Shown: positions 3,250 through 40,200 of the stretch, one piece after another
Numbering within the stretch: the stretch's first letter is position 1
How the letters are laid out: every line of letters begins with the position of its first letter
Assembly (NCBI RefSeq): GCF_007751715.1
Contig: NZ_CP036292.1
Location: 6,145,339-6,209,338 of the forward strand
Source of the DNA: Rosistilla oblonga
GTDB lineage: Bacteria > Planctomycetota > Planctomycetia > Pirellulales > Pirellulaceae
Direction: 5' to 3'
Length of the DNA: 64,000 nucleotides
Notes under the pieces: model-generated
Told to the model about the DNA's origin: nothing
Databases searched by the model: none
The model's input: only the letters and a program-made list of their open reading frames with translations
Translations under genes and position numbers: made by a program

Positions 3250-3310
3250 AGCGGCGACGGACCTTCGAATTAGCTAGCCAGCGGGCAGCCGAAAACGGCT
3301 GTTCGTTGGC

Positions 3311-3913: not shown

Positions 3914-3972
3914 CGCGGTATCTCAATCGTTGCTAAGCGGGCAGGGGCTATTCAGTGTTTACATCCGCACAA

Positions 3973-4035: not shown

Positions 4036-4103
4036 TACCTATATCGCGCTGCCCATCGGATTACGGGCGTCTAATGTAGCGTCGCGCCTCGGGAACGGCT
4101 ACG

Positions 4104-5615
4104 ATGAACATCCCCCCAAATAGTACAGCCCCCTCGCCATTCCGTTACAGCGGGAGCATGTCCACGATGTTGCCTTCCCACCCTCACCGTAGCAATCGGC
4201 TATCGCGTCGCCAACTGCTCCGCTTCGGAGCCGCCGGACTCTCTGCGTCGAGCCTGTTGCAGATCCGATCGGCAGCGGCCGCCACGAAAACCGAACAAGC
4301 GCATCCAACAACAGGAACCACCAACGCGTTTGGCCGGGCGAAATCGTGTATCGTGCTGTTCGCGTGGGGCGGGATGAGCCACATCGATACGTTGGACGTG
4401 AAGCCCGACGCGTCGTCGGACATCCGCAGCATCTTCCATCCGATCGCGACTCGCACGCCGGGCTACTACGTTTCCGAACACCTGCCAAAAATTGCTCAAC
4501 AGACGCACCGGATGGCGATCGTTCGCAGCGTGCATCACAACGCGCCGTCGCATCGTTCGGGAGCCTACTGGAACCTGACAGGGCATGAGCCACCGAACCT
4601 GAGCGGAAACTGGGAAGCGTCGCGCGACGATTGGCCCTGCATTGGATCGATGGTCTGGGACGCCAAACTCAATCAACATGGCAGCGATCTGCAGCAGCGG
4701 CTCTCCGCCGATGGACTCTCCGGCGCCGTCTGTTTGCCCTACTCGATGTACGATGGCGGCCGCGCCAACGGTCAGGACGGCGGCTTCTTGGGCATGCATC
4801 GCGACCCGATGATCATCAAGCCGCGCGAAGGGAAACCGTACGACGGAGTCAGCCCTAGTTCCGGCCACATCGACTTGGAACTCGTCGAAGGGCTCGACCG
4901 CGAGCGCTTGTCGGCCCGCCGAAAACTACTGTCGCAGATCGATGCCAGCCGCGACGTGCGGACGAACGAAGGGATGCAGGGGATGGCCCGGCATCAGACT
5001 CAAGCGCTCGACATGCTGCTGAGCGAACGGGTGCAGCGAACGTTCGATCTGAACAGCGAACCCGCGGCGGTTCGCGAACGCTACGGAATGCACGTCTGCG
5101 GACAGAGCGTTCTGACGGCGAGGAAGCTGACTGAGGCGGGAGTCCCGCTGGTGACCGTCTACTGCAGCGCGGGCGATCTCAACGGCAGCGTTGGAGCCCA
5201 TTGGGACACGCACGGCGATGGCTTCAACCGACTCAAAAATCAAATGATTCCGCCTTGGGATCAAGCTTCGGCGGCGCTGCTGGACGACCTGTCCGCCAGC
5301 GGGCGATTGGATGAAACGCTAGTCGTCTGGTTGACCGAATTTGGCCGCACGCCGCGGGTCAATCCCGGCGGCGGCCGCGACCACTACCCGAACGTCTATT
5401 CGGTCGCATTTGCTGGCGCCGGCATCGCGGGAGGCTTGGTCTACGGCAAGAGCGACAGGAATGGAGCCGAACCGCTGGATCAGCCTTGCGGGCCAGCGGA
5501 TCTGCATGCGACGATCTTTCATTCGCTGGGAATTTCCGATCACTTCACGCTCTACGACACGTTGGGGCGACCGCTGACGGCCTGCGATGGCCGCCCGCTG
5601 CCGCTGTTCGCCTGA
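4104..5615 (+). CDS. DUF1501 family protein with Tat signal
   Basis: A 503-residue member of the DUF1501 (sulfatase-superfamily-like) group that is greatly expanded in planctomycetes. A twin-arginine signal is visible at residues 35-56 (SRRQLLRFGAAGLSASSLL), so the protein is exported folded. Family features are CIVLFAWGGMSHIDTLDVKP after the signal, SVHHNAPSHRSGAYWNLTG, and the C-terminal WLTEFGRTPRVNPGGGRDHY with metal-site-like Glu/Arg/Asp/His residues. The family usually sits beside a DUF1549/DUF1553 cytochrome-like partner; none is present here. Function is not established. The start may instead be the ATG at 4158, which leaves a more typical n-region before the RR pair. Confidence 0.92.
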   Translation: MNIPPNSTAPSPFRYSGSMSTMLPSHPHRSNRLSRRQLLRFGAAGLSASSLLQIRSAAAATKTEQAHPTTGTTNAFGRAKSCIVLFAWGGMSHIDTLDVKPDASSDIRSIFHPIATRTPGYYVSEHLPKIAQQTHRMAIVRSVHHNAPSHRSGAYWNLTGHEPPNLSGNWEASRDDWPCIGSMVWDAKLNQHGSDLQQRLSADGLSGAVCLPYSMYDGGRANGQDGGFLGMHRDPMIIKPREGKPYDGVSPSSGHIDLELVEGLDRERLSARRKLLSQIDASRDVRTNEGMQGMARHQTQALDMLLSERVQRTFDLNSEPAAVRERYGMHVCGQSVLTARKLTEAGVPLVTVYCSAGDLNGSVGAHWDTHGDGFNRLKNQMIPPWDQASAALLDDLSASGRLDETLVVWLTEFGRTPRVNPGGGRDHYPNVYSVAFAGAGIAGGLVYGKSDRNGAEPLDQPCGPADLHATIFHSLGISDHFTLYDTLGRPLTACDGRPLPLFA

Positions 5616-5712
5616 ACCATTGGGTACAGACGCTACTTGAGGTGGCATCGCCTTGCGATACACTCAGTGGACAGAATCTCTTTCCTGACCGCCCCTCAAG
5701 GATCCCCACGCA

Positions 5713-6561
5713 ATGGGTCTATACGATCGACCGTATTACCAGGACGAAGAACGCTCACACCTGCCTCCCTCGCTGGCGTCACAGTCGTTTGTGATCGTGT
5801 TGATCGTCATCAATGTCGCGGTATTTTTCGCCGACTTCATCTTCGGCGGCGAAGGCTTCGCGCTGCGAACGGCGATGGAGGTCACGCCGCAGACGATCGT
5901 CAAACCGTGGCTGTGGTGGCAGTTTGTGACCTACGGGTTTGCCCACGGCAACATGAACCACATCCTGTTCAACATGATCGGGCTGTTCTTCTTCGGGCGG
6001 ATCGTCGAACAGCGGCTGGGGAAAATCGAATTCCTGCGGTTCTATCTGGTCGCGATCATCCTTGGCGGAATCGCCTGGTCGCTGCGAGCTAACCTGACCG
6101 ACTCCCTTGCTCCCGGCGTGATCGGTGCCTCCGGCGGCGTTATCGCGGTCACGATGCTGTTCATCTTTTGGTACCCGCAGACCGAGATCTATCTGATGAT
6201 GGTCCTGCCGGTGAAAGCCTGGATCGTCGGCGTGCTGATGATCGCGGGCAACCTGTTTGGCATGGGGTCGGCAACGACAGCCTTCGACGTCCACTTGGTC
6301 GGCATCGCTTTTGCCAGCGCCTACTATTATTTCCACTGGAACCTCGCCTCGATCTCGCCGGCGGGGCTGTCGAAGCTAACCCGCCCGAGCACGCGATTGA
6401 AATTGCACGATCCCGATCGTCAGTCGCGGCAGGAGCGACGCGATGCGGAGGAGGCGGAGCGGATTCTGCAGAAGATCCACGAGCATGGCGAAGGGAGTTT
6501 GACCAACGCCGAACGGAAGGTGCTCGAGCGCCACAGTCGCCATCTGCGCGACCGACGCTAA
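5713..6561 (+). CDS. Rhomboid-family intramembrane serine protease
   Basis: A 282-residue multi-pass membrane protein. The rhomboid dyad is present: Ser140 in GVIGASGGV and His194 in FDVHLVGIAFASAYY, with the His83/Asn87 oxyanion pair in MNHILFNMIG on helix 2. Six or so hydrophobic segments run from 25 to 210. The soluble C-terminal tail (215-282) is charged and predicted helical, ending in an LTNAERKVLERHSRHLRDRR stretch that resembles the small C-terminal motif of several planctomycete rhomboids. It cleaves single-pass membrane proteins within the bilayer; the substrates are unknown. It follows the DUF1501 gene by 97 bases on the same strand and may share its transcript. Confidence 0.93.
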   Translation: MGLYDRPYYQDEERSHLPPSLASQSFVIVLIVINVAVFFADFIFGGEGFALRTAMEVTPQTIVKPWLWWQFVTYGFAHGNMNHILFNMIGLFFFGRIVEQRLGKIEFLRFYLVAIILGGIAWSLRANLTDSLAPGVIGASGGVIAVTMLFIFWYPQTEIYLMMVLPVKAWIVGVLMIAGNLFGMGSATTAFDVHLVGIAFASAYYYFHWNLASISPAGLSKLTRPSTRLKLHDPDRQSRQERRDAEEAERILQKIHEHGEGSLTNAERKVLERHSRHLRDRR

Positions 6562-6615
6562 CGGCGAGCGTCGATTCGCTTGAGCGTCGGCTTGCCGCTG
6601 ACGCTCGGCGGCGGT

Positions 6616-9600
6616 CTAACGCTTCCGGCTGTTCCAGATCTGGAACCCGGAGACTCTCTCGGTCGTTTCGCCGTCCGTTTCGCGATCCTTCTGCGGACTC
6701 GGCTGCGGCTTGTCGCGGTCGCTATCGCCGCGGAACCAGTTGACGATTCGCCGTCCCAAGCTCGGCTTGGCTTCCGGCTTGCCATCGCTCGCCTGATCGC
6801 GGCTCTCGCTCTGCTTCGACGGCGCGACCGCCTTCGCTGGCTTAAAGAGCTGCGGCCGCGTCGGTGCCGCGGTCGGCTCCGATCCGATCATCCCTAGTTC
6901 GAGGTCGTCCAAGATCGCGAGCGCCGATGCACGGCGGGCCTGACTTTGCGAAGACGCTTTGGTTTTGCGAGTTGCCGCGATCGCATTGGTCCGACGCGAG
7001 GAACCGCCCGGCGGAACGCGATCGAGTTGTGGGACCTGCGAGGACGCATCGGCGACTTCTCCCGGCGGCATCGTTGCCGGCGACCGACCGGCGTCGCTGA
7101 TCGACGCGGTCGCACCGCTGGACGCTTCCCCTGCGGGCAGCTCCGTTTTGGCGAGCACCACCGGCGTCTGATTTAGCAGCCTGTCGGATTCTTGCGACCG
7201 CTTCAACTGAAGATACGGACCAAACTCGCTCGACTCGACTCCCGCCAGCGCCACGTCGTGTCGACTCTCCAAATCGGCGATCTCCTCGCTCGTCAAAAAG
7301 CGATCGTAGATGGTGACATGGTCGACCCAAACTCGCCCGCCACCATGAACTTCGAAGCGGACCTGCAGACTGCTCTCGCGCTCGGTTGGGATCTCCAAGA
7401 TCTGGAATCCCGCCTGGCGGTAGGGCGTATCGGTCGGGATATCGTGTTCGTCGCGAACGCTTTTGGGGACCGAGCTATCGATCCAAATCGATTCTTGATA
7501 CGTCTGCTCACCAATCTGTCCCGAGACCACCATCTTCAACCGCGTCGTGGCAAAATCGTCTTCCGCTCGGACGCGGGCGATGCACAACATCCGTCCCGAT
7601 TCGGGAGCAGCAAAAGGCTTCGATCGCGCCCATCCGATCGGCGGCGTAGGCCAGCCCAACGGCGGTTCGGTCAGAATCAGCAGCGATTTGTCCGACTGCG
7701 AATCGTCGTTCTCCAACCGCAATCGCATCCCCGCACCGCGAGCCAATTCCCAACCGACAACCTGTCCGTTGGAGTCGCTTTCGGACAGATCGGCGTTGGG
7801 CAGCAACGACGCTTCTTCCAGCTGAAGGTTCTTGGCAGCATCGAGATGTCGCTTCAGCGTCGCGAGCCACTGACGCATCTGCTTCGAAGCGACGCGATCG
7901 CGCTGCATGCTCCAATCGCGAATCTGAACATCCGCCTTCGGCACGCGGAACGATACGATGTCGAAAGGAGCGACGCGAACCTGCCAGGTGTTTACATCCA
8001 GCGCCGCGGTCGTGGCGTCCGACGCCGTCTGCACCTCGGCGCCATCGAGATCATCGAACTCGATCAACACGTCGGTCGACCAGGCGGAGTTGTTGACGAC
8101 GTAGCCGTAGCGAGCGACAGTCGATGCAGCGGTCCGCACCATCACCGTCGGATCGTCGGTCTTGGAACTGTCGGCGGGCTCGAAGCGGCCGCTGGGCAGA
8201 GCTCCGATCGCTGTGAACAGGTTCCGGCGGGCTTCGATCTGCCCCAGGCTGAGATCGGGCAGCGGATGAACGACCCAATCGGCATCGCTTGCCGCGAACT
8301 GCCGAATCCAATCCGATCGGCCCGCGGCGCCGACAATCTGCACCGGTTGCTCGGGCGACAGCAACAAGCCGACCTGTTTGGCTAACCGCACAGGCTGCAA
8401 CAGCTGTTCCTCTTCATCGACCACGTCGCCGCCAGCTTGCCGTGTTGAACCAGCACCCGCTTCCGAATCGCCGATCCAAACGACTCCCGGCAGCTTGGTT
8501 TGCGAATCGGTAAACGCCTGTCGCAGTTCGCGATGAGCCGCGGTCGGCTGGCCGGTCCGATCGATCACAAACAGCCTGTGGTTCGATTTGTTCGCAGCCA
8601 ACGATTCTCCCAAGCCAGCCAACAGCAATCCCAATTGCACGTCGCGCCAACTGCGCAGCTCTTCGTCCGAAAGCGAGTCGGCTTTTGCATCGCGTTGCTC
8701 CGGCTTCTGCAATGCGACAGCCCGGTCGTGAGCCGCCGGATCGCAGCCCCATCGCTCGCCGGGAAACTGAAGGTAGGTCTGTTCGTCGATCACAACGGCG
8801 ACGCCGCCAAACGACGGATGCCGCGAGTACCCGTCGACCAATTCCTGCACGATCTGCCGAATCGCCGCTTGGACATCGGGATGGGCAGGGTTGTAATAAG
8901 GTCCCTGTGGCGGCGACGTCGGACTCGCCTCCCACCATGTTTCGTGCTGGTCGTTGCGGAGTCGCAGGCTGTGATCGCCGGCGAGGATCTGCGCCTCCAG
9001 CCCAGCCAACGGGAAATCGAACCGGACCGTTGGGATCAAGACCATCTGGTGGCGATCGTACATCTGGAACAACAATTCCAGCACGTCCTTCCGCGGCGAA
9101 CCTCCGCCATCGGGGAATTGCTCGCCATTGTCGAACAGCACCGACGGCTCGATCCAATTGCTCGGATAGATCGATCCGCCGCCACCGGCCACCGTGATCA
9201 TCGCCGCGGAATAGCCGGCGTTGTTCAGCAGTTGAGCCTGACGAGCGGTCGAATCCAGATAATATTGCCAGTCTTTCAGATCGGCAGCCGCGGGCGTTTG
9301 CACCTGCGTCGCGCCGAATCGCAGCCCCATCTCGGGCGAATCGAGGAACGCCGCTACGACGCGCTGTCCGCTGACGCCTCGCGAATTGACCGCCGGCAGC
9401 GTCTCGGGCCCCGCGTAGACTTTCATTTGCGTTGCCGACGCCTGCGACGAATCGCTTCGCCGCGTCACCTCGATGCCGACTTCGCCAGCTCCCGGCCAGA
9501 AGACCAACTGGTGGTTTGTGACTTTCCCCGACCGTTCATCGATCCGAAAAACGGATTCGACCATCGTATTGGCGTCGCCCGCATCAACTTGCAAAACCGA

Positions 9601-28260: not shown

Positions 28261-28403
28261 ACACGGCTCAGCCCCGCAATGGCATGCTCAGTGCCGCAGG
28301 CATGGCATGCACTAGCCATGGACGCAAGTCCATGATGACAAGCCAACCGAACAGAATAAGTGCCGAAGGCACGACAGACTCCTTCCCATTCTTTAGGTAC
28401 AGA

Positions 28404-28710
28404 GCCAATCGAGGGCAGGAACAATTCCCGGCGACATCCACCATCGATTTACAGCTGGCGATGCTGACACCACCTAAAAATAGACTCTGCCTCCGTCCAG
28501 TAAATTGGCAGAATGATGGAGGCAGAATAATGTTTCGGAAACCAATCGGGGGCAGGAACAATTCCCGGCGACATCCACCATCCATATACCGCCAGCGATG
28601 CTGACACCACCTGACAATAGACTCTGCCTCCGCCTGGTAAATTGGCAGAATGATGGAGGCAGAATAATGTTTCGCGCCGCCAGTTAAGTCTCTACCTCGA
28701 GGCGAGGCAA
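28404..28710 (+). repeat. Tandem composite C-B repeat at the left edge of the defence island
   Basis: Two units with a 137-base period. Each begins CCAATCG(A/G)GGGCAGGAACA (28405 and 28542), passes through GCGACATCCACCATC and CTGACACCACCT, and ends GGCAGAATGATGGAGGCAG then AATAATGTTTCG. The second unit runs on into CGCGCCGCCAGTTAAGTCTC and TACCTCGAGGCGAGG. The same unit, with the same CGCGCCGCCAGTT...TCGAGGCGA extension, occurs in direct orientation at 37887-38080. The island genes lie between. The rest of 28002-28777 shows no gene. Confidence 0.85.
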
Positions 28711-28777
28711 CCAATCTGGGAAAGCCATTCTTCCGGCTCGTTCTTCGGCTTGGCTTTTACGCGACATCGGACTACGA

Positions 28778-29143
28778 ATGATTCGACGGAGCATCGAATT
28801 GATCACGCTGAACGAAGCACTGATCAATGCGATGAGCAAAGATGAAGCGGCAGAGGCAATTGCCAGTGCCGACTTTGAACTTGATGGCCAGTTGCCCAGA
28901 GATCTCGTCGATCAGCTTTTGCCGATTCATCGCATCCACTTTGTCGGATCATCGCGGGCGTACACCTCGGTTCGCGGTTTCGCTTCGTACACAATCGGCA
29001 ACATCCTTCAGGGTTGCATCGTCACACTTCGCAAGGGCGCGAAAAACCTCAGGCTGATCGAGAATACGGCGACAGATGGATTCAGGAATCCGGCCTGCCA
29101 TGAGCAGCAGCTCTTCTTCGTCTCCATCGAGCGTTTCCGCTAG
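28778..29143 (+). CDS. Doubtful small frame, partly antisense to the XRE gene
   Basis: The plus strand is open for 121 codons. Only the first 57 (MIRRSIELITLNEALINAMS, then a KDEAAEAIASADFELDGQL stretch) lie outside the regulator gene. That part looks protein-like, being amphipathic with mixed charge. The rest is the antisense of the XRE coding sequence. No family is recognised and no clear ribosome-binding site is visible. It may be the remnant of an older gene truncated by the regulator, or chance. Confidence 0.25.
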   Translation: MIRRSIELITLNEALINAMSKDEAAEAIASADFELDGQLPRDLVDQLLPIHRIHFVGSSRAYTSVRGFASYTIGNILQGCIVTLRKGAKNLRLIENTATDGFRNPACHEQQLFFVSIERFR

Positions 29144-29305
29144 ACGGTGAATCAATGCTTCTGAAGGCGAGTCGCCGAAGTCCAACTTGCTGTTTTCGAC
29201 TTTGCTCAAGTAGCTGTAGCCAACACCAACCATCGGCGCGAGCGTTCGAAGCGAAAAGCCCTTGCCTTTGCGAAGCTCACGTATTTTTTCGCCAAAGGCG
29301 TTCAT
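28949..29305 (-). CDS. XRE-family HTH transcriptional regulator
   Basis: A 118-residue protein from ATG 29303-29305. The N-terminal Cro/C1-type HTH is clear: FGEKIRELRKGKGFSLRTLA, then PMVGVGYSYLSKVENSKLDF, where the SYLSKVEN recognition helix is standard. The C-terminal half (IHRLAETLDGDEEELLLMAG) is the usual helical extension of regulators related to SinR and R-M controllers. It is divergent from the hsdM remnant, with 123 bases between starts, the layout of a controller for a restriction-modification locus. An upstream in-frame ATG adds 36 residues but starts in a non-HTH lead. Confidence 0.9.
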   Translation of the reverse strand: MNAFGEKIRELRKGKGFSLRTLAPMVGVGYSYLSKVENSKLDFGDSPSEALIHRLAETLDGDEEELLLMAGRIPESICRRILDQPEVFRALAKCDDATLKDVADCVRSETANRGVRPR

Positions 29306-29428
29306 GGGTGCCTGCCTGCTTGTTTGCGGTGCACTGAAACCATACGATCGTTGCAGGTAAAAGGCAACAGTACGAAAGGGGCATGACGACATGCCTCTTT
29401 GACGGTTTCTCAACGCAAAGTATGAGCT

Positions 29429-30486
29429 ATGTCAGAGGCGGACGGCCAGAAGCCCCTCAAGGATCTCGATAAGAAACTTTGGACTGCGGCGGACAGATTG
29501 CGTGCCAACTTGGACGCCGCCGTTTACAAGCACGCTGTTCTCGGTCTGATCTTCCTGAAATACGTTTCCGACGCGTTTGAACTTCGTCAGCGGGCACTTG
29601 AAGATCAGTTGCGTGACGCGGGGCACGCCTACTACATCGATCCGGCAAGCTATTCGGACGACGAGTACCGGGAGACGATTCAACAGGAACTGGAGGTGCG
29701 GGACTACTATCTGGAGGAGAACGTATTCTGGGTTCCAGCGGTCGCTCGCTGGAAGACGATTCAGGAGAATGCCGCTCTGCCGGCCGGAACTGAGATTGAA
29801 ATCGCGGGCGGCAAGAAAGCGACCTACAAGATCACGTCGATCGGCAAGCTGATCGACGATGCGCTGACCGCCGTTGAGCAGGACAACCCAAAACTGAAGG
29901 GCGTACTCAACAAGAACTACACCCAGCTCCAGCTTCCCGCCGAAAGCCTCACCGGCTTGATCGACCTGATCGCAGAGATCCCCTTCCAGCACGAATCGCT
30001 TGACGCCAAAGACATCCTTGGCCACGTCTACGAATATTTTCTGGGGCAATTCGCACTCGACGAAGGCAAGAAGGGCGGTCAGTACGACACGCCCAACTCC
30101 ATCGACAACCTAATCGTCGAAATGCTCGAACCGTTCAAAGGGCGAGTCTACGACCCCGCGATGGGCTACATGGTGGACCGAGTCCTCCGGGCCTTCACCG
30201 ACAAAGACGCCAAAAAGATCGTCAGCACCTTTCATACGTGGAAGCGAGGCCCCATCCTTTCACCCTCCCTCGGGGAGGGTCGAGGAGTAGGAACGACGAC
30301 GAGGGGAGGGAATGCTGAACAAGTCGGCTACCGCGACATCCCCGGCTTCTGCAAGAGCGCGACGTTGGACGAGATCGCCGAACATGGCTACGTGCTCACG
30401 CCCGCGGTCGCTACGTGGGAGCCGAAGAGGTGGAAGGCGATGGCGTCCCCGTCGCCGAACAGATGGAGGGCCCCACCCGCGAGTAA
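29429..30486 (+). pseudogene. hsdM: Type I restriction-modification methyltransferase HsdM, core deleted and frameshifted
   Basis: The N-terminal HsdM helical domain is intact (KKLWTAADRLRANLDAAVYK, then HAVLGLIFLKYVSDAFELRQ), through QYDTPNSIDNLIVEML. The SAM-binding motif I should read VYDPACGSGG, but it reads VYDPAMGYMVDRV. The reading jumps from motif I to the C-terminal MVDRVLRAFTDKD block, so the catalytic core with the NPPF motif is missing. The join near 30160 is in frame. A hairpin-bearing insert follows (30250-30311). Then DIPGFCKSATLDEIAEHGYV, the normal HsdM tail, appears. Two extra bases near 30404 break the frame of the tail (VGAEEVEGDGVPVAEQMEG), whose own stop is at 30484. It cannot methylate DNA. 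Confidence 0.88.
30250..30311. repeat. Hairpin-bearing insert within the hsdM remnant
   Basis: Between the HsdM FHTWKRG and QVGYRDIPGFCK blocks lies extra sequence with a perfect hairpin ACCCTCCC-TCG-GGGAGGGT (30262-30280) and then GAGTAGGAACGACGACGAGG. It keeps the reading frame. It resembles the small GC-rich stem elements elsewhere in the window (45363-45395), and may be a short dispersed repeat that inserted here. Confidence 0.55.
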
Positions 30487-30533
30487 GCCACTCAATTTCA
30501 CCGTGCCGTCGCCGCGTAGCTTGGGTCAGCAAT

Positions 30534-33500
30534 ATGTCACTTCTCAATGATACTTCGGGTCAAGCACATCCTTATTGGTATGAATGGTTTGTTGGCCTTA
30601 TTGAGGTCGTGAAACTACTGAACCCCGATGAAGGGATAACACAAGTCGCGTTCCAAGTTCCCTCGATCCAAGGGTGGGACGATGTTGTCGTCACGCATAC
30701 AAACGGGAAAAGACTTTACCAAGTCAAACACACGCGTGAAAAAAACAACCTGACGTTTGGAACCCTCGTTGAGGTCGATGACAAAGGCAACTCGCTTCTT
30801 GGGAGTCTGTTCGAGGGGGGAAAGTACAGCGGATTGATCGACCCCACAAATGAATTGATCCTTTACACGAATCGCGAAGATGGTTCGCGTTGGTCTACTC
30901 GCGGCAACGGCAAACGCCGTCCTCCGCTATTGGAGTTTTGGAACTGGTTAAAGAGCGAACTCGAAACAAAAGAATTATCAGGCATCTCACTTCCTGCTGT
31001 TGACGACGACACACTCGACTACGCCGATGCTTGGGCCGAATGGCTAGCCTGCTATAAGGGCGATGACGAGGAAGCAACCAAATTCCTCCGTCAACTTACC
31101 ATCCGTACTAAGGAAGATGACCTCGATGGCCTCGAATCTCGCGTCCGTGAATCGCTTGCCGTTGCATTTGGCATAACAGAACAAAAAACAGCCCCGCTCT
31201 TTGACGCTCTGTGCCGAGAACTACGGTCATGGACTACCGGACACGCGGGCGTGACCGTTGAAGTACTATGTAACGCGTTAACTGTCGAACCCGCCCCGAA
31301 AGAGTTTGCGCCCGCGCCCCCACCGCCATCACCATTCTTTCCGACTCGTCTGCCGATAGCCGAACAACTCCAGACAGACTTACTCGACGAAAAAGAGGCT
31401 CCCATTGTTTTTCTCACGGGTGAGCCGGGATCAGGAAAAACGAGCGCAGTGAGTTGGTTGGCAAATCGCCGCACGCATAATGCTTTTCAGGGCATCATTG
31501 GTATTCGCTTCTTCTGTTTTGAGCCAATTCGGCCAGAGCATCCATTCATCTCTCCCGACTCATCCCGGGTGAAGCCCGAAGAGCTCTGGTTCAGCCTGTT
31601 GACCCAACTGCGACGCGGACTTGCGACGCGGCTTTTTGAGCTGAAGGTTCCGCTTAGAAACGACTTCCTGACGTGGGCTGAAGCGCGAGACCACGTGCTG
31701 CGATTGTCCGACGTGATTGGACAAGAACTCGGTAGAAGGTTTGTCATCTCAATCGACGGAATCGACCATGCTGCACGTGCCTCGCAGGTAATGCCAGAAC
31801 AGATCGCAGAATTTTTCGCCTCTTTGCCGTCACCGGATTCTATTGCGAACAAGCAGATTCGTCTTTTGATTGCTGGACAACCGCCTGAGTACTACGCGGA
31901 TGAGTACCCAACGTGGTTAACGATGGAAAACGAGAAGGTCCGCCGAATCGATTTGCCTAAGCTCGAAGGAGAAGACATTAAGTGTCTTCTTATGAAGTCA
32001 AGCACATCGACTGGCGAAGAGCACATCGACGAAGCTGTGCGACTAATCGACGAGTTGTCCAAAGGAAACACGCTGGCCGTAGTGTTTGCAGTTGCGGAAT
32101 CAGAGCTCTGCGATTCACTCGAAGAACTTGAGAACAAACTCAAAGATCGGTTACTCGGCGAGGGGTTGTTGAGTTACTACGACTCGATTTGGAAGCATGT
32201 TCTTAGGGAAGCTCGTGAGCTGAGCTGTTCGCTCGCCGGCATGATTTCGTTGGCGAGAACGCCGGTAACCGCCAATCAACTCGCAACGGTATTCTCGTCT
32301 TGGCAGAAGCCGTCACCATGGTGGAAACAGGTACTCATCGACCTAGGTCCGTTGCTGACGCGACAAGGGGAGAGCTTCCTGATTCGGCACAATGATGTCC
32401 GGGTATTCCTTGCGTCAAAATACAAAAGCTTCCCTGAGGAAGATCAAAAGGCGGTTGCATCGCAACTCATAGACTATTTCAGTACCAAAGAAGCGGATCG
32501 TCTAACAGCGCATCTGCAGCTGTTTCCTCTGCTGAACCTGGCTGATCGGTCGATTGAAGCGGCAAGTCTGTTTGATGTTGATTGGGTACTTGAGGGGGCA
32601 ACTCTTGGCTTGGAAATGGATGCGTTGCTTCAGGAAGGCGAAATGGCCGTAGCACAGCTTTCCAAAGCCAGGAATTGGTCTAACGTTGTGACGGTCTCGT
32701 GTGCTTGTGACACACTCGATCGCGTCAGTGAATTCATAGAACATCAAATCGCAATTGAGAAATGGGAAAAGGATTTACCCCCATTCCTACCTGCGGAGGC
32801 AAACGTACGACCCTTTGTGCAATGGACAAAGGACGACTTTCATCAACTTGTGTGGGACGCTCATGAATTGGTGGAAGGCGGCGATCCCGAACGAGCCCGA
32901 GGCCTATTGGACCGGTGGCTTGATGGACTTGGAATCGAACAGGTCATTCAGACTGTACCGGATTTTGAGTCGGACCGGATGCATCGAATTCGTGATGGCG
33001 AAGAACCAAGACTCGATGAAGTCGCCGTAAGCGATTTTGAAGTACTGGGGCGTCTTTCAGCGAGAATTCAATGGCAATTCTGGGGCGAGCTTAGCAGAGA
33101 ATCACCTCGATTAGAGACTGACGCGTTTTACAGTTTTGAAAAGGGCTACGTGGATGAATTAACGACTGCTCCAAACTTGGAGTCAGCGGATGAATTGTTC
33201 GCCCACCACGCCGTAAGATTCTATTCAAATCAGGAGTTGGCGGTTCGCAATCTAGCAAAGGCGGGCTCATGGTCGCTGGTCGCAGACTTGCTCCAATCAA
33301 TGGAGGAAAATCGAGAGTCATTTAGCGACGCGTTTCGACTGGAGGCATCGTGGTATGCACTACGCTCTGGAATGCCTGCGGAATCAGCGTGGGTAATTGC
33401 CCCGGACGATCTACAAGAAATTTTGCCTGAAGTTTCCAAGTACTATCGGGTAGAGAACATCAACTTATTGCAGTTCATTAATTCGGCGATGGCGTTTGGC

Positions 33501-36278
33501 TGGACGCGTCACAGTTGGGACCCGGGCGACATTGCCGATCGGATTTTTGAATCATTTGAAGCCCCCGACGAAGCAAGCGTCGAAAACGCGATGAAGCTCG
33601 TCTTTCGTGCCGCAGCGGTCGTCGGGAGGCTGGAGAGTCACCTAGCGAAAGCCAATCGCGAATCTGCTGCAGCATCATTTCCGCCCGACCACATTCGGCA
33701 GTTACTCTCGGCGTTGTGGGGAGATGTAATCAACCGCGCTGGCTATCGGTTTGAGGGCCGAAGGGAAGCGGCGGAGCTTGCGGAAAGATTGACGATAATC
33801 TGTGGAGAGCTAGGTGGTGATTTAGATTCCGCAGCCTTTGAAGCGGCGTTGCCGTTTGCTCAGGAGTATGCACTTGGCTTCCGTTTGAGTGCGATCTGGA
33901 ACGTTGTCAATCGACACGGCAAGGTTGATATTCTTCGTGCGTGGCTTAACAACTACATATCCGAAGATGGTTCCGCGTGGGCGTGGGCACCAGAAAACGC
34001 GAGAGAGACTGCTGATGATCTGGTTCCATACGCACGATCAATCGGGATGGATGATCTTGCAGACTACGCTGAAGGACGCGCGAGCAGACTAATCGTCGGT
34101 TATCGAACCCATAAAGAATACTCGTTTGAGCGAGCTAACGACTGGTTTCAGGAAGCGGCAAAAAACGACCCCAACATTTGGTCGGTTGAAGGTTGGATGC
34201 TTTGGGAGATATGCAGAATCTGTGATGAAAGGGATGGGGACAACCGTCTCGAACCTGACATTTTGAAAGGAATCAGTGCTGCCGCAATCCGTGCTGGCAA
34301 AACGACGAGTTGGTGGCGCCTAGTTTCAACAACACTCCCGAAAAAATGCGAGCGCGACTGGCATTTTCAAATCAGGCAGCAGTTCGTCGAAGGGCACATC
34401 GAAGCGCTGACACAAGGGCTCACGGTTAATGACGAAGAGGTGCTACAGATCTGGAGCATCGCTCTATCATTGAGTTATTGGTTCAACAACGGTGATACAT
34501 CGTCGCTGCTGGAATTGAAGGAATTGCTTCTGAACGGTGTTGCTACTGAGCGAAAGACCGAGATTGCCGCGGCAATGGAATCAGTCAGCCCAATCGTGAA
34601 AGTTAAGCGAGATAATGAAAATGCAGAACAGCCGAGGGCGACTCGCGAAGTAGCTCCACAAAATGACCCTCTTGAGGAAGACGGCTGGTGGAATGAAATC
34701 GACCATTTTCTTCAGAACAAAGATGACGAAGAGTATCGGTACGTCGGATACGCGAGCGGCCTTATGTCGGTTGCCCTGCGACGGGCTCGTCAGCACGGCA
34801 ATGAGGAACTGCTGAAGGGGCTGGATATTCAACTCGACATGCATCTGCGCTGGGCTTTCGGCGGCGAACCGCTCGATTCGATTTCGCTACCGCAAATTGC
34901 AGAATCTGAATTGGCGTCAACGGATGACGTCTTCATTGATCTAATCAAAGTCCTTTTTGAAACCTACAGCGTTGAGGTAACTGTCGCTGCCTTAGAGGGG
35001 CTCCACAGCTACGTGTCGCAAGATCCAACAATAATCCCGCGTGTATTGGAAGAAGTTTCAAGTGAGTGGCCTCGACGATGGCTGCTAAGCGCCGCAGAGT
35101 CTTGGGCGGTCCTGCATCCTGATGAGGTTCACAATGCCAATTCGACGTTAAGTTCTGTGATGGAATCGGCTGATCTAGACTGCCGTCTTCAGGCTTGGAT
35201 TGTTCTGACGCGAAATGCACAAACACGAGGAGTCGATCCTCCTATTTTTCCGCTACCTTCAGAACCAGAGCTTTCAATTGACGAGGTGGAAGCGGTGGAA
35301 GTCGCGTTACTCGAAATCCCTCCGACCATTCTGGGTTCGACCCGATTTGCGAACAAGTTTTCGTCCGTTCATATGCTTGTCGAATATTGTGGGCGTTTCG
35401 GTTTGAATTTTGAGAAACTCGAAGGCCTTATGGCAAAGGAACTAATCGGAAATGCTGTTACCTTTGATCCAGACTTGCGAAAACGCGGCCCTCACCGCTA
35501 CGCAGACTTCACGTATGTTCCAGCTGAGGCGGAAAGGGCTTTCGGCAATGCAATTTGTTCGATTCTAAGCTCCCGTTGGTGTGGCAATCCGCAGCTTGCA
35601 AAGATTTGTCAAGCCACACTGTCAAACGAAGACGCGTGGATTCATCGAACACGGCCGACAGCGATTCGCTCTTCGGACGATTGGCCTGCGGATTCGGAAT
35701 ATGGTGGAGAAGAAACGGATACGACAACGCGAAAACAGCAGATGCTAAATGCCGCTAAGTGTGCTTCTGTTGATGACGAGTCGATCGTATTTGCTGCGCG
35801 AATCCGAGACTTCACGTGGAAAGAGGATTTTGACGTGCATTTCTGGTTCGAGGAAGCGGGAGACACTCTACTGATTTCGGCACCCAGAATCCCAAAATGC
35901 CCCAGCGGACGGTCATTCATTTGGTGGATCGGGGAGCCTTTGGACCTCCGTAGTCGATTTGTTTCAGGGCGATTTGTCGGTGGTCACCAACGACTTTCAC
36001 ATTGCCATTTTGAAATCCGACCTCCGGTGAATTGGCGCGACAAGTTTGGTTGGAGTCCAAATCCACTGAACGCACTTGAATGGCTTCTCGACGACAAAGT
36101 TGTCGCCAGATACGAAAGAGTTCACGGTGTTCTTCGAGATGCGACGCACGGCCCAAAGTACCGCCAGCCCATAATTGACCGCTGGGTCATCACCAAAGAG
36201 GCATTTGCTGCAGTGAAAGAGAAGTATCCGCATCTTCGCGAACGAGATACCTTCGAGGTTCAACAGTTCAAAGAGTAA
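30534..36278 (+). CDS. Cap4/DUF4297-like nuclease - STAND NTPase - long helical sensor protein (Avs-like)
   Basis: A 1914-residue protein starting at ATG 30534. Residues 1-200 resemble the Cap4/DUF4297 PD-(D/E)xK nuclease: YEWFVGLIEVVKLLNPDEGI, GWDDVVVTHTNGKRLYQVKH, where Asp50, Gln63 and Lys65 match the D...QxK site. A Pro-rich linker (EPAPKEFAPAPPPPSPF) is at 252-268. The STAND NTPase has a Walker A at 296-303 (GEPGSGKT) and a Walker B at 402-412 (RFVISIDGIDH). After about 650, amphipathic helices run to the C-terminus (WWNEIDHFLQNKDDEEY and similar), as in TPR/alpha-solenoid sensors. This is the architecture of Avs2-type antiphage proteins: ligand binding, oligomerisation, DNA cleavage. 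The DNA is visibly more AT-rich than neighbouring genes, suggesting transfer. Homology to a named Avs family is inferred, not shown. Confidence 0.85.
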   Translation: MSLLNDTSGQAHPYWYEWFVGLIEVVKLLNPDEGITQVAFQVPSIQGWDDVVVTHTNGKRLYQVKHTREKNNLTFGTLVEVDDKGNSLLGSLFEGGKYSGLIDPTNELILYTNREDGSRWSTRGNGKRRPPLLEFWNWLKSELETKELSGISLPAVDDDTLDYADAWAEWLACYKGDDEEATKFLRQLTIRTKEDDLDGLESRVRESLAVAFGITEQKTAPLFDALCRELRSWTTGHAGVTVEVLCNALTVEPAPKEFAPAPPPPSPFFPTRLPIAEQLQTDLLDEKEAPIVFLTGEPGSGKTSAVSWLANRRTHNAFQGIIGIRFFCFEPIRPEHPFISPDSSRVKPEELWFSLLTQLRRGLATRLFELKVPLRNDFLTWAEARDHVLRLSDVIGQELGRRFVISIDGIDHAARASQVMPEQIAEFFASLPSPDSIANKQIRLLIAGQPPEYYADEYPTWLTMENEKVRRIDLPKLEGEDIKCLLMKSSTSTGEEHIDEAVRLIDELSKGNTLAVVFAVAESELCDSLEELENKLKDRLLGEGLLSYYDSIWKHVLREARELSCSLAGMISLARTPVTANQLATVFSSWQKPSPWWKQVLIDLGPLLTRQGESFLIRHNDVRVFLASKYKSFPEEDQKAVASQLIDYFSTKEADRLTAHLQLFPLLNLADRSIEAASLFDVDWVLEGATLGLEMDALLQEGEMAVAQLSKARNWSNVVTVSCACDTLDRVSEFIEHQIAIEKWEKDLPPFLPAEANVRPFVQWTKDDFHQLVWDAHELVEGGDPERARGLLDRWLDGLGIEQVIQTVPDFESDRMHRIRDGEEPRLDEVAVSDFEVLGRLSARIQWQFWGELSRESPRLETDAFYSFEKGYVDELTTAPNLESADELFAHHAVRFYSNQELAVRNLAKAGSWSLVADLLQSMEENRESFSDAFRLEASWYALRSGMPAESAWVIAPDDLQEILPEVSKYYRVENINLLQFINSAMAFGWTRHSWDPGDIADRIFESFEAPDEASVENAMKLVFRAAAVVGRLESHLAKANRESAAASFPPDHIRQLLSALWGDVINRAGYRFEGRREAAELAERLTIICGELGGDLDSAAFEAALPFAQEYALGFRLSAIWNVVNRHGKVDILRAWLNNYISEDGSAWAWAPENARETADDLVPYARSIGMDDLADYAEGRASRLIVGYRTHKEYSFERANDWFQEAAKNDPNIWSVEGWMLWEICRICDERDGDNRLEPDILKGISAAAIRAGKTTSWWRLVSTTLPKKCERDWHFQIRQQFVEGHIEALTQGLTVNDEEVLQIWSIALSLSYWFNNGDTSSLLELKELLLNGVATERKTEIAAAMESVSPIVKVKRDNENAEQPRATREVAPQNDPLEEDGWWNEIDHFLQNKDDEEYRYVGYASGLMSVALRRARQHGNEELLKGLDIQLDMHLRWAFGGEPLDSISLPQIAESELASTDDVFIDLIKVLFETYSVEVTVAALEGLHSYVSQDPTIIPRVLEEVSSEWPRRWLLSAAESWAVLHPDEVHNANSTLSSVMESADLDCRLQAWIVLTRNAQTRGVDPPIFPLPSEPELSIDEVEAVEVALLEIPPTILGSTRFANKFSSVHMLVEYCGRFGLNFEKLEGLMAKELIGNAVTFDPDLRKRGPHRYADFTYVPAEAERAFGNAICSILSSRWCGNPQLAKICQATLSNEDAWIHRTRPTAIRSSDDWPADSEYGGEETDTTTRKQQMLNAAKCASVDDESIVFAARIRDFTWKEDFDVHFWFEEAGDTLLISAPRIPKCPSGRSFIWWIGEPLDLRSRFVSGRFVGGHQRLSHCHFEIRPPVNWRDKFGWSPNPLNALEWLLDDKVVARYERVHGVLRDATHGPKYRQPIIDRWVITKEAFAAVKEKYPHLRERDTFEVQQFKE

Positions 36279-36520
36279 TCCTGAGCTGTTTCTGGATTAT
36301 ATGCTGTACTTCGTCCTGCTTGAAGACGAAGGGTACTCGCTCATCAAAAAGATCGCCGGTTACCATCCGCTCCATGGCGTCCGCGTCATCACGATCGCGG
36401 CTGCCGATTCCGACGACGACGCCCTCCGCGAAAGCCGAACCATCAACAGCCGCCAAACGACGGAATCCAGCCTGAAATCGGCCTGAAACACCGAGATTCT
36501 TGTTTAGGCGCAAACCGCAG

Positions 36521-36853
36521 ATGATGTCCGAAGGCCAACTCGAACAACTTTCCCTCGACGGGTTCCACGAGACCGGCTGGGAATACGCCAACGGCGTGGA
36601 CATCTCCCCCAACGGGGACGATCCAGAGCGGGATGACTACCGAGTTGTCGTCTTGAAAGATCGCGTGGCCGTAGCGGACGCGTGGGCGAATCAAGACCGG
36701 CTCCAACTCGGTGCCCGCTGTCGTCACGCGGGTTGGAGGGACAGCGGCGTGATGATTTGGAAACGCAGAGACGACATGCCGCAGAAAACCTCCGCGCCTC
36801 CGCGTTTCAAACACCTACAATGGCGGGCTTACCAAACGACAAGAGAGGTTTGA
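36521..36853 (+). pseudogene. hsdR: Type I restriction endonuclease HsdR, 5' remnant
   Basis: From ATG 36521 the first 45 residues read like the start of HsdR: MMSEGQLEQLSLDGFHETGW, then EYANGVDISPNGDDPERDDY and RVVVLKDR. In intact HsdR the next words are LxDALxRxNP; here the sequence becomes unrelated from about 36665, and the frame runs on to a TGA at 36851. None of the nuclease or helicase motifs is present. It follows the Avs-like gene by 242 bases, so an hsdM...hsdR pair once flanked that position. The stretch between (36279-36520), with a frame MLYFVLLEDEGYSLIKKI at 36301, is not recognised. Confidence 0.65.
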
Positions 36854-37750
36854 ATGAGCTGGCTATTGTTTATGGATGAAAGCGGGCACGACCACAAACA
36901 GATGCCCTACGAAGTACGCGGCGGCATCGCGTTGCAAGACCGAAAAGCCTGGCCGTTCATTCGTGCTGTTGCAAGCCTTGAAGAGAATTGTTTCGGGGTT
37001 CGCCTTGCCGATTTCAAGAAAGAGTTCAAAGGCTCTAAACTTCTCGACAAAGATCGAATCAAATGGGCCGAACAAGGCCCACCGCAAGGAGATGCTGAAC
37101 GAAAACGAAACGCTCGTGCTTTTCTCTCCAAAGGCCTGCAGAAGCAACCTCAACGCCGCGACGAGTTTACTGGCTACGGCCAAGCATGCCTCGAATTGGC
37201 TCGAGGCATCTTCCGTCTACTTCGCGACCATGACGCCAAGCTGTTTGCTTCGGTGATTCCACGGGGAGTCAAACCGCCTGAAACCTTTGAAGCGAAAGAG
37301 TACTTGCGAAAGGATCATGTCTTTCTGCTGGAACGGTTTTATCACTTTGTTCGCAAGCAGCAGGAACAAGGCTTGATCGTGATGGATCAAGTCGAAGAAC
37401 AAAACGACATTCGCTTTGTGCGAAAACTTGAACGCTACTTCGTTAGAACAAACAAGGGTGCCCAACGCGCTGACTGGATTGTCCCCGCACCATTTTTCTC
37501 GTCGTCCTACTTGAGCATTCCAATTCAGGTTGCCGACGTTTGCATCTACTGTCTGAATTGGGGCTTCCGACGCCCCCAGTGGAATATGGACGCGGAAACG
37601 AGATCGCGAATCGAACAAGACTTCAGCGGTTGGATCAAACGTCTTGAGTTTCGGCAGAAAACCAAGAATGCCGATGGTACGCTCAAGAACCTTTTTGGGA
37701 TTGCATTCGTGCAAAACCCTTACGGGAGCGGACGTGATAGAAGCGCATAA
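36854..37750 (+). CDS. DUF3800 family protein
   Basis: A 298-residue protein. The DUF3800 signature is present: LLFMDESGHDHKQMPYEVRG at 4-23, with Asp8 and Glu9, then the second block QVADVCIYCLNWGF near residue 225, with its Asp. The family is predicted to have an RNase H-like fold with a metal site and is common in phages, plasmids and defence islands. Function is unproven. The start codon begins one base after the hsdR remnant's stop (TGAATG), and AGAGAGG lies 7-14 bases upstream as a good ribosome-binding site. It is intact, unlike its R-M neighbours, so it may be kept by selection. Confidence 0.88.
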   Translation: MSWLLFMDESGHDHKQMPYEVRGGIALQDRKAWPFIRAVASLEENCFGVRLADFKKEFKGSKLLDKDRIKWAEQGPPQGDAERKRNARAFLSKGLQKQPQRRDEFTGYGQACLELARGIFRLLRDHDAKLFASVIPRGVKPPETFEAKEYLRKDHVFLLERFYHFVRKQQEQGLIVMDQVEEQNDIRFVRKLERYFVRTNKGAQRADWIVPAPFFSSSYLSIPIQVADVCIYCLNWGFRRPQWNMDAETRSRIEQDFSGWIKRLEFRQKTKNADGTLKNLFGIAFVQNPYGSGRDRSA

Positions 37751-37886
37751 AAAAGGAGACAAAATCCTTCCCGACGGCCACAAGGGCTCCCGGTCCGGCC
37801 GAGTCTCCACACGAAGTATCGGCTGACGCAGCCCAGAAGTCAAGAGATTCCCTCTATGAAGGCGTTCAAAGCCGACTTTTTAGTAA

Positions 37887-38080
37887 CAAATCGGGGACAG
37901 GCACAATTCCCAAATCAATCGGGGACAGGCACAATTCCCGGCGACATCCACCATCCACATCCCGCTGGCGGTGTTGGCCCCACCTGAAAACATGCTCTGG
38001 CCACGTCTGGCGAATTGGCTGAATGATGGGGGCAGAATAATGTTTCGCGCCGCCAGTTCCGCCTCGACTTCGAGGCGATG
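37887..38080 (+). repeat. Composite C-B repeat at the right edge of the defence island
   Basis: A partial unit (AATCGGGGACAGGCACAATT at 37889) is followed by a full unit from 37917: GGGGACAGGCACAATTCCCG, GCGACATCCACCATCC, CACCTGAAAACATGCTCTGG, GAATTGGCTGAATGATGGGG, GCAGAATAATGTTTCGCGCC. It continues CGCCAGTTCCGCCTCGACTT CGAGGCGA. Order, orientation and extension match the left-edge copy at 28404-28710. Confidence 0.85.
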
Positions 38081-38312: not shown

Positions 38313-38321
38313 GTTTGGCAG

Positions 38322-38395
38322 TAGCGGCAGAGGGACTCGAACCCCCGACACGCGGATTATGATTCCGCTGCTCTAACCGGCTGAGCTATGCCGCC
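38322..38395 (-). tRNA. tRNA-Met (CAT), elongator type
   Basis: The minus strand folds as a cloverleaf. Acceptor GGCGGCA pairs with TGCCGCT and the discriminator is A. The D arm is GCTCAGCCGGTTAGAGC and the anticodon stem is GCGGA/TCCGC with loop ATCATAA, giving anticodon CAT. The T arm is GGGGGTTCGAGTCCCTC. The anticodon stem lacks the three G-C pairs of the initiator tRNA. The GGAATCATAATCC context fits elongator Met rather than the lysidine-modified Ile tRNA, though Ile cannot be fully excluded. CCA is not encoded. The 3' end points towards the defence island. Confidence 0.92.
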
Positions 38396-38532: not shown

Positions 38533-40200
38533 TTACCGATCCGGTTCGCTGCTCCCCTGACGCAACTGGTTGAAATATTGCTCGGTATGCTCTCGCTCGG
38601 CCCTGGGGAGCGGACGATCCTCCAGCGGGTCGCTCTCCTCCTGCATCGCGTTAATCACCGCACTCTTGATCTCCTCCCGCGTCACCCCTTTGCGATTGGG
38701 GCCGTTGGCAAATCCGGCGGCGATCCCGCTGCCGTTTTTCGGTTTGGTGCGGACCTGCGATTCGTAGTTCCCCGTCTCGGTCTCCTCCTCGGGACGGTCG
38801 CCTTTCCCTCCTTCGCCTTCGCCCATTCCGTCGCCTCCCTCGCCTTTGCCTCCCCCCTTGCCCGGAAACTGCCCCGATCCCTGACACTGCTGGCAGCCAC
38901 TGCCCTGACAGCTCTGGCATCGCATCTGCTGCTTGGTTTGCGACAACTGGTCCATCATCTCTTCCAATTGATCCATCTCGTTCTGCATCTCACCCAGCTC
39001 TTCGGCCAGCTGTTCCAAGGACTCCGCCGCACTCGACGCGTCCCCTTTTTGCATCGCCTCTTTTGCTTGAGCTAGCCCCTCAGCCATCTGCTGCATCTGT
39101 TGCATTTGCTGGTCCATCTGTTGCATCTGCTGCAACTCCTTCTCCAGCTTTTCCGCATCCTCGCTGCGGCCTTCCTGCTTGGCTTGGTCGATTTTCTTTT
39201 GCAGATCCTGCTTCGCCTGTTCGTGCTTTTCGACAGCCTTCTCGATCGCCTCCTGCATCTTGGCGATCTGATTCTCCAACTGCTTCTGTTCGGCCTTGGT
39301 CATCGTGCCGTCGTTGAGCTTCTTGACAAGTTTCTTGATCTCGTCTTCCGCTTTCCCCAGCTCTCCCCGCTGCATCGCCGACACCAACTTGTCAGCCGGT
39401 CCGCGTTGCATGTCCTTTAAACCAGCCAGCTGCTTCCGCATCTCTTCCTTCGAACCCATTTGATCGCGGCGTTCTTGCAGTTGCTTCTTGATGTCGTTGA
39501 GCGCAACCATCGCCTGTTTCTGGTTCATGTCCTTGCGCTGCGACAGCTGATCCAGATCGGCTTCGATCTTCTTAAACAGATCGCCGGCATCTTTGAGCCC
39601 CTGCGCCTCGGCGCGTTTGCGCCGCACCGCGAGCTTCTTCTTCAGTTCATCCGCAGCGGTTTTAATCTGCTGTTGCGATGCGGTGTCGACGCTCGCTTGA
39701 GCTTGGTTGTCCTGAGTCGCATCGGGAATGAACAGCAACACGGCCATCACAGCGCAGGGAGCCAGCGGCAGCAGCGCGATGCGTTGCACCCGGTGGCGAA
39801 AGTGCTCCGACACATCCAACTTCTCCGCTCGGCGAGCCGCGTCGGCCAACAGCGCCTTGCCGATCTCTGAATCGAGCTCCGCTTCGCTCATCGACAGCGA
39901 ACTGCTGATCCGCTCCTTGAGCCCAAACTGCTGATCGATCGCGATCGCCGCGTCGTTCATGCTCGGCGCGGTCCACCGCGTCACCACGCCCGCGATCACC
40001 ACCGCAGCGGCAACCGCGGCAGCCAACCAAGACAATCGCCAGGTGTCCAAATCGAACGACAGCGCCCACAGCTTCGGCACCGCCAGAGCTAACAGCGCGA
40101 TACACAAAGCGGCAAAAAGCGACCAGCAGAAAATGCTTGCAAATTTTTGCAGCATCAACCGCCGGCGGACTCGAGCAACTTGATGGCGAACGTGGTCCAT
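38533..40200 (-). CDS. Planctomycete membrane protein with long coiled coil and DnaJ-like zinc motif
   Basis: A 555-residue protein. Two transmembrane segments lie near residues 20-45 and 58-76, with a third near 144-160. Residues about 175-410 are a continuous Glu/Lys/Gln-rich coiled coil with QQM-type repeats (LQQMQQMDQQMQQMQQMAEG). Then comes MRCQSCQGSGCQQCQGSG, two CxxCxGxG motifs as in the zinc-binding region of DnaJ, followed by a Gly-rich linker and an acidic tail. The repeats suggest a peripheral scaffold on the cytoplasmic or periplasmic face. The family is known to me only as an uncharacterised planctomycete membrane protein. It faces away from the LarA-like gene across a repeat region. 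Confidence 0.82.
   Translation of the reverse strand: MDHVRHQVARVRRRLMLQKFASIFCWSLFAALCIALLALAVPKLWALSFDLDTWRLSWLAAAVAAAVVIAGVVTRWTAPSMNDAAIAIDQQFGLKERISSSLSMSEAELDSEIGKALLADAARRAEKLDVSEHFRHRVQRIALLPLAPCAVMAVLLFIPDATQDNQAQASVDTASQQQIKTAADELKKKLAVRRKRAEAQGLKDAGDLFKKIEADLDQLSQRKDMNQKQAMVALNDIKKQLQERRDQMGSKEEMRKQLAGLKDMQRGPADKLVSAMQRGELGKAEDEIKKLVKKLNDGTMTKAEQKQLENQIAKMQEAIEKAVEKHEQAKQDLQKKIDQAKQEGRSEDAEKLEKELQQMQQMDQQMQQMQQMAEGLAQAKEAMQKGDASSAAESLEQLAEELGEMQNEMDQLEEMMDQLSQTKQQMRCQSCQGSGCQQCQGSGQFPGKGGGKGEGGDGMGEGEGGKGDRPEEETETGNYESQVRTKPKNGSGIAAGFANGPNRKGVTREEIKSAVINAMQEESDPLEDRPLPRAEREHTEQYFNQLRQGSSEPDR

Follow-up and report, generated by a model that had tools for sequence, protein, structure and literature searches.

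Avs2 proteins are laid out as effector, STAND NTPase and sensor, and Avs3 proteins combine a Cap4-type nuclease, a STAND NTPase and a long helical sensor. PMC12931631 describes Avs1-4 as nuclease-effector STAND proteins with the order effector, STAND, sensor, which are triggered by terminase, portal or Ksap1 and then cut both the phage and the host genome. For Avs1, PMC12799240 reports a trypsin-like protease fused at the N-terminus of the STAND protein and a separate MBL nuclease partner.

The window analyzed here is a stretch of 64,000 nucleotides from Rosistilla oblonga. For one of its genes the initial annotation had proposed a Cap4-like nuclease, a STAND NTPase and a long sensor, and hence an Avs-like protein. 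At the level of architecture this class call was upheld by domain matches, structure models and similarity to the Avs3 structure 8dgc. We consider it likely that its product acts on its own as an NLR-like anti-phage receptor, and that the gene is carried on a small island which this lineage probably gained. The gene and its parts are as follows.

30534-36278 (+): nuclease-STAND-sensor gene, 1914 aa; open frame, start conserved in relatives
30573-31283 (+): Cap4/DUF4297-type PD-(D/E)xK nuclease domain, about residues 14-250; PADLOC LmuA, sub-cutoff Pfam Cap4_nuclease, AlphaFold2 (AF2) model
30681-30728 (+): nuclease active site D50 ... Q63-x-K65; kept in 11 out of 11 aligned rows
31338-32513 (+): STAND NTPase and winged-helix region, about residues 269-660; Pfam AAA_22, Foldseek
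31419-31442 (+): Walker A GEPGSGKT, residues 296-303; GxGKT core in 11 out of 11 rows
31737-31769 (+): Walker B / DGIDH signature, residues 402-412; DGIDHAAR followed by A or S in 11 out of 11 rows
32388-32396 (+): HND motif, residues 619-621; 11 out of 11 rows
32514-35780 (+): helical solenoid, predicted sensor, residues 661-1749; AF2 models, 8dgc match, least conserved part
35781-36278 (+): C-terminal strand-containing region, residues 1750-1914; AF2, low to moderate confidence

Translation of the window confirmed the single frame of 1914 residues that had been claimed, 30534-36278 on the plus strand being free of stops over 1914 codons. The mechanically derived ORF begins upstream at 30312 and comprises 1988 aa. 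Since the relatives begin at the equivalent of 30534 (MAKDTSG... in a paralogue, MTSPGIG... in a Leptospira protein), this start is preferred and the one at 30312 was rejected. The motif residues named beforehand (D50, Q63-x-K65, Walker A at 296-303 and Walker B at 402-412) were all found in place. A second copy of 38% identity in the same genome (the paralogue, locus L008) and long relatives elsewhere argue that the gene is not a chance frame. Searching the PDB by sequence gave no meaningful match, with best E-values of 0.28 for the single protein and 0.011 for the family profile.

The N-terminal domain is matched by the PADLOC model LmuA over residues 20-235 (E 6.6e-11). Pfam Cap4_nuclease scored 18.5 bits (E 0.0025) on the window protein and thus stayed under its cutoff of 26.2; it was found at E 0.01 or better in 3 out of 11 family members, and the divergent relative L047 exceeded the cutoff with 35.4 bits. 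LmuA was matched by 9 and the SAVED/PDDEXK effector model PDLC02005 by 10 of the 11 members in PADLOC. In an alignment of 8 full-length and 3 partial rows (L011, L015 and L016, which cover this region), D50, Q63 and K65 are invariant. The AF2 model places them in an alpha/beta nuclease core, where D50 precedes strand 51-55 and Q63-x-K65 lies within strand 60-65. A PD-(D/E)xK site had been postulated, and its absence from a structure had been named as the finding that would speak against it; the modelled strand layout suits a PD-(D/E)xK-type core.

The adjoining NTPase exceeded the Pfam cutoff for AAA_22 (E 2.3e-7, 31.6 versus 27 bits), and the matches to AAA_16 and NPHP3_N fell below theirs. 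Walker A and Walker B, which an AVAST/Avs protein should possess, are intact in all 11 rows, the first G of Walker A being replaced by A in L010 and L012. A GQ motif is likewise invariant throughout the 11 rows. We take the HND motif at residues 619-621 to stand where STAND proteins have their MHD-type motif.

AlphaFold2 was run on two overlapping halves. For residues 1-1190 (mean pLDDT 79.4, pTM 0.48) it predicted the nuclease, the NTPase with a winged helix and then a solenoid; for residues 715-1914 the mean pLDDT was 67.8 and the pTM 0.46, with 281 of the 1200 residues under pLDDT 50. The C-terminus had been described as helical, which holds to about residue 1749, and the last ~165 residues contain strands in the low to moderate confidence part of the model. 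In Foldseek searches against the PDB, 8dgc, which is Avs3 bound to the terminase of phage PhiV-1, came first for the N-terminal half (E 4.4e-14, next distinct entry 1.3e-6, among the best 50 of 937 matches) and for the C-terminal half (E 6.3e-8, next 4.8e-4, among the best 50 of 817). Within the same best 50, the entries that followed in the N-terminal search were archaeal STAND ATPases, plant NLR resistosomes, the Dark apoptosome and ORC; in the C-terminal search they were generic solenoids. Solenoids resemble many proteins, which weakens the C-terminal match. By query length, TM-scores to 8dgc were 0.19-0.23 for the N-terminal and 0.38-0.40 for the C-terminal half, with rmsd values of 43-48 and about 18. 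Because the TM-scores are low and the rmsd values large, these matches reflect a common architecture and not a close superposition. Resemblance of the C-terminus to a non-defence family had been regarded as counter-evidence in advance; its best PDB match is instead an Avs protein. Likeness to Avs3 consists in the length of about 2000 residues, the top rank of 8dgc among the best 50 for both halves and the common layout of Cap4-type nuclease, STAND NTPase and long helical sensor, whereas identity in the structural alignments is 11-13% and the window protein ends in a strand-containing region.

By prediction, the protein has the tripartite layout of the broad AVAST/Avs group, with effector, STAND NTPase and C-terminal repeat sensor. 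It is Avs-like in layout and predicted fold and forms a family of its own by sequence, set apart by comparison with Avs1 and Avs2. Scanning the 11 members with PADLOC at a threshold of E 0.01 gave matches to 9 families, among which Avs1b (PDLC02159) was the only Avs name and Avs2, Avs3 and Avs4 were absent. Avs1b was matched by 3 of the 11 members, the window protein not being one of them; in the two members with coordinates shown, L017 (5.7e-12) and L013 (7.8e-10), the match covers residues 269-546, which is the NTPase. Many genomes gave only short matches to the Avs1b model at about positions 15-110, as a common protease domain would give. Unlike Avs1, the window protein carries a Cap4-type nuclease and not a protease as its head, and no MBL domain was found by Pfam among the 10 window proteins scanned; membership in Avs1 was rejected on these grounds.

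The initial annotation had drawn the comparison with Avs2, and here the domain layout agrees. Membership itself was not borne out, because none of the 11 members matched the PADLOC Avs2 models (PDLC02162/02163/02165) at E 0.01 and profile alignment was restricted to the NTPase. For the latter, a profile built from five Avs2 proteins of genomes matched by these models was compared with the family by hhalign, which aligned 88 columns with a probability of 33%. The family genomes G393 and G421 were also unmatched by the Avs2 model, and the closest solved structure is that of Avs3. No match named Avs3 was obtained from PADLOC or NCBIfam, libraries which may hold no Avs3 model, and in NCBIfam neither the window protein nor the paralogue nor the Leptospira protein had a relevant match. 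The separate sensor subfamily that had been suggested is consistent with these data, Avs1b being the only Avs name among the PADLOC families matched and the Avs2 profile aligning in the NTPase alone. No paper evidently describing this receptor family was found in the literature searched, which omits most subscription journals. The family is a new one of a kind already known. It adds a multi-phylum group of NLR-like receptors in which effector and switch are recognizable and the sensor lies outside the Avs models matched or tested.

Conservation falls along the protein. For the 8 full-length rows, pairwise identity averages 0.38 over the nuclease and 0.45 over the NTPase core; it is 0.32 for the winged-helix region and 0.21-0.24 for the C-terminal two thirds. 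For the two copies in this genome the corresponding values are 0.47, 0.57, 0.42 and 0.29-0.34. This gradient, which is a comparison of identities and not a test of selection, would be expected if effector and switch stayed constant and the sensor changed.

The gene lies on a small island adjoining a tRNA gene, with the following further features.

28397-28705 (no strand): two overlapping copies of a ~172-nt repeat, left island edge; repeat search
36854-37750 (+): gene of a DUF3800 protein, on the island downstream of the receptor; Pfam DUF3800 1.5e-13
37907-38078 (no strand): third copy of the ~172-nt repeat, right island edge; repeat search
38321-38395 (-): tRNA-Met adjoining the insertion site

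The island spans ~9.2 kb (28706-37906) with a GC content of 0.526 compared to 0.586 in the rest of the window. The receptor gene itself has a GC of 0.512 and a GC3 of 0.511, which agrees with the earlier remark that the region is AT-richer than its neighbours. GC3 is 0.535 in the DUF3800 gene and 0.563-0.745 in the eight genes measured outside the island. Among 23 matches of the repeat in the genome, only the three copies at the island are longer than 100 bases, the other 20 measuring 27-75 bases. The same-genus genome G797 aligns with 97% identity up to 28145 and again from 38260 with 95%. Tandem repeat copies lie in between, and the island interior gave no blastn alignment (E 1e-10) to this genome. 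In a second genome of the genus, G798, the island is likewise absent and about 4.5 kb of different DNA occupies the site. The receptor gene was not found elsewhere in G797 or G798. Since both sisters lack the island, either this lineage gained it or each sister lost it; gain is simpler, and the island was probably acquired by this lineage.

Support for the receptor reading comes from the domain matches, 8dgc, the invariant catalytic residues, the defence genes found near family members and the absence of the island from the sisters. By analogy to the Avs proteins, the resting protein would hold its Cap4-type nuclease inactive. A phage protein may bind the C-terminal sensor, upon which the STAND NTPase would bind or hydrolyse ATP and oligomerize. 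The nuclease heads would then converge and presumably cut double-stranded DNA of both phage and host, so that the infected cell would stop or die before phage release (abortive infection). Trigger, oligomerization, DNA cutting and abortive outcome are all inferred.

The remnant of an R-M (restriction-modification) gene is found directly upstream of the receptor.

29429-30550 (+): hsdM remnant whose open frame shares 17 bases with the receptor gene; HsdM_N and the beginning of N6_Mtase recognized, catalytic domain mostly missing

It lies within the island, and its GC3 of 0.732 is like that of the flanking genes and differs from the 0.511 of the receptor, and the two therefore need not share an origin. 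A hairpin inside the remnant (30240-30325) is no more stable than shuffled sequences (z -0.30). An upstream gene was visible at 18 loci of the family and its relatives (the window, L005 and L006 counted as one, L008, L009, L010, L012-L016, L018, L019 and L042-L047), leaving aside L004 (short match), L007 (interrupted N-terminus), L011 and L017 (contig edge) and L020 and L021 (fragments). At 8 of these 18 loci a restriction-modification (R-M), BREX or DISARM gene lies just upstream on the same strand, a count for which no null model was run. These are the window with its hsdM remnant, L009, L012, L014, L016, L019, L045 and L046. The number becomes 7 if the near-identical L045 and L046 are taken once, and 5 out of 14 when L009, L045, L046 and L047 are omitted as divergent relatives. 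L009 adjoins DISARM DrmA/B/C. L012 has a REase_I-like gene upstream with one gene between and a gap of about 0.5 kb, and L019 a C5 methylase and a Bsp6I-like endonuclease with one ORF of no recognized family between. L014 stands beside a type I and L016 beside a type III R-M system. L045 and L046, whose receptors are 94% identical and represent one event, stand beside BREX.

This company of R-M, BREX and DISARM genes is a pattern among the neighbours scanned and does not amount to a demonstrated enrichment, so that a link to restriction systems is suggestive and unproven. It could be explained if the nuclease receptor guarded DNA-modification systems and fired when a neighbouring R-M, BREX or DISARM system was blocked by a phage anti-restriction protein. 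Such a guard overlaps with the receptor reading preferred here and differs in its trigger, as it would not be a free-standing detector of packaging proteins. The Avs-type family would then act as a portable guard behind type I, II and III R-M, BREX and DISARM, its sensor reading counter-defence, a possibility that we consider unlikely. In its favour, besides the 8 out of 18 loci and as the most telling case, the receptors of L014 and L016 are 82% identical over 1716 aligned residues despite their different R-M types. Precedents are PrrC, which guards EcoPrrI, and PARIS, both R-M guardians according to PMC12707154, and PD-(D/E)xK backup effectors in BREX loci, some of them fused to sensory modules, in PMC12839542. 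Because backup effectors are described there in BREX loci, that article may cover the BREX-linked relatives. The effector gene beside restriction systems is shared with PrrC and PARIS, whereas sensor and effector differ and guarding is hypothetical here. However, defence genes cluster anyway, with R-M as the commonest kind. No gene of this sort was found among the scanned neighbours of the paralogue, L010 and L013, and in the window the methylase has collapsed while the receptor frame is open, with the divergent GC3 noted above. The common receptor beside different R-M types in L014 and L016 makes the idea directly testable. If the link is functional, Avs-type receptors would be tied to the guarding of restriction.

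Readings in which the protein is no receptor of a phage protein are far less probable. A large STAND regulator without a role in defence, similar to MalT, is suggested by 8bob_C of the maltose system among the Foldseek matches (E 3.1e-6). MalT-type proteins carry a DNA-binding domain and not a nuclease, and the nuclease residues invariant in all 11 rows, the defence neighbours and the patchy distribution make this reading very unlikely. Still less likely is a Cap4-like CBASS effector, in which a cyclic oligonucleotide would activate the nuclease. Lamassu LmuA and CBASS Cap4 carry nuclease heads of the same superfamily, PDLC02005 was matched by 10 out of 11 members, and Cap4 (6vm5) appeared at Foldseek rank 44 (E 7.6e-3). 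Yet the matches to effector models end by about residue 235 where coordinates are shown, the remainder being STAND and solenoid; the protein has no SAVED domain in Pfam, and no CD-NTase was found among the ten window proteins scanned. The least probable reading is Lamassu, with the window protein as LmuA and the product of a coiled-coil gene at 38533-40200 (-) as LmuB. The nuclease matches LmuA at 6.6e-11 and the coiled-coil protein LmuB at 3.6e-5, but the latter match spans residues 165-426 and the N-terminus resembles DUF4175 below cutoff. We know of no LmuA with a 1600-residue STAND/sensor part. The island has no LmuB partner, and the coiled-coil gene lies outside it on the opposite strand and persists in G797 and G798, where the island is absent; Lamassu was rejected on this synteny. 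Points that weigh against the preferred receptor reading itself are the sub-cutoff Pfam Cap4 match, the low TM-scores and large rmsd values, the lack of a recognized defence gene among the scanned neighbours of L008, L010 and L013, and the rarity of the family.

The family is rare and spread over several phyla, with relatives in Planctomycetes, Verrucomicrobia, Firmicutes and on Leptospira plasmids. From 92 pattern matches in genome contigs, 12 loci were confirmed, located in Gemmataceae, Pirellulaceae, Opitutae, Verrucomicrobiales, Paenibacillus, Domibacillus, Oscillibacter, Clostridia and a Bacteroidales bin. The nearest named relatives are Gemmataceae and Pirellulaceae bins, which agrees with the planctomycete label of the initial annotation. 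L018 and L019 run into a contig edge, and in both L020, from the Bacteroidales bin, and L021 only 44 residues match. Furthermore, 11 Leptospira plasmids gave matches, with no place covering 80% of the query; the Leptospira protein of L005 (1963 residues) aligns along the full length. In its own phylum, 3 out of 392 sampled genomes carry the family, the R. oblonga genome included (G279 being a 48-residue match). In the phylum to which the Paenibacillus genome G393 (L013) belongs, the count is 7 out of 398, G393 included, with G427, G450 and G628 matching in pieces only. Among the 20 nearest relatives the only carrier is the R. oblonga genome itself. Viral contigs searched with two pattern sets gave no match for the first and 87 matches for the second, none of which was confirmed, and 50,697 phage records contained no relative at the sensitivity used. 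A viral origin was rejected at this search sensitivity.

Neighbours of other kinds were also seen at the remaining loci. AbiEii lies upstream of L015, and at L043 Thoeris ThsA/ThsB are found 2.5 kb downstream and serine-recombinase pieces upstream. L042 is preceded by a hydrolase-like gene and followed by a second STAND protein. Among the neighbours scanned, no recognized defence gene was present at L008, L010 and L013, the last having a protein kinase downstream, and only genes of no recognized family at L005, L018, L044 and L047. Some copies are broken or shortened: L015 contains an in-frame stop and L011 frame breaks, in L. noguchii the L007 gene is split into two CDS in the annotation, and the CDS of L006 comprises 614 residues, with an IS3-like element 130 bases further on.

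The island carrying the receptor gene is bordered by a repeat of about 170 nt, which was also found at another locus, L055:

window 28397-28705 and 37907-38078, ~170-nt repeat
L055 14375-14712, ~170-nt repeat

The repeat marks an insertion site adjoining tRNA-Met. It is present in tandem in the sister genome G797, and the other sister genome, G798, carries different DNA at this site. A coiled-coil gene lies outside the island and is kept in both sister genomes:

window 38533-40200, (-), coiled-coil protein, weakly DUF4175-like, with weak LmuB matches

Further features were noted at loci that hold relatives of the receptor:

L008 7168-8247 and 8547-9626, two tandem ORFs beside the paralogue
L042 14641-18453, (+), second STAND protein (nSTAND3) with LmuA-like head and sub-cutoff HEAT repeats
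L045 3159-9200, (-), and L046 6592-12630, (+), divergent NACHT/STAND protein of about 2010 aa
L007 6037-11075, on a Leptospira noguchii plasmid, and L006 5989-9110, receptor relatives

The ORFs beside the paralogue are equal in length (359 aa each) and identical in their first 25 residues; the scanned member gave a sub-cutoff match to an IS200-like transposase. At L042 the receptor is followed on the same strand by the second STAND protein. In both L045 and L046 a BrxL gene is located 23 bases ahead of the divergent gene, and methylase genes and a PglZ-like gene (sub-cutoff) were found further upstream in L046. The copy on the Leptospira noguchii plasmid (L007) is split by the annotation into two consecutive CDS, and that of L006 is short and followed by an IS3-like element.

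At L012, positions 1-7474 form one run of ORFs upstream of the receptor. Two of them, one reverse-transcriptase-like and one nitrilase-like, gave sub-cutoff matches; the others encode a nuclease of the pPIWI-associated type and proteins resembling REase_I and GIY-YIG/DUF2924.
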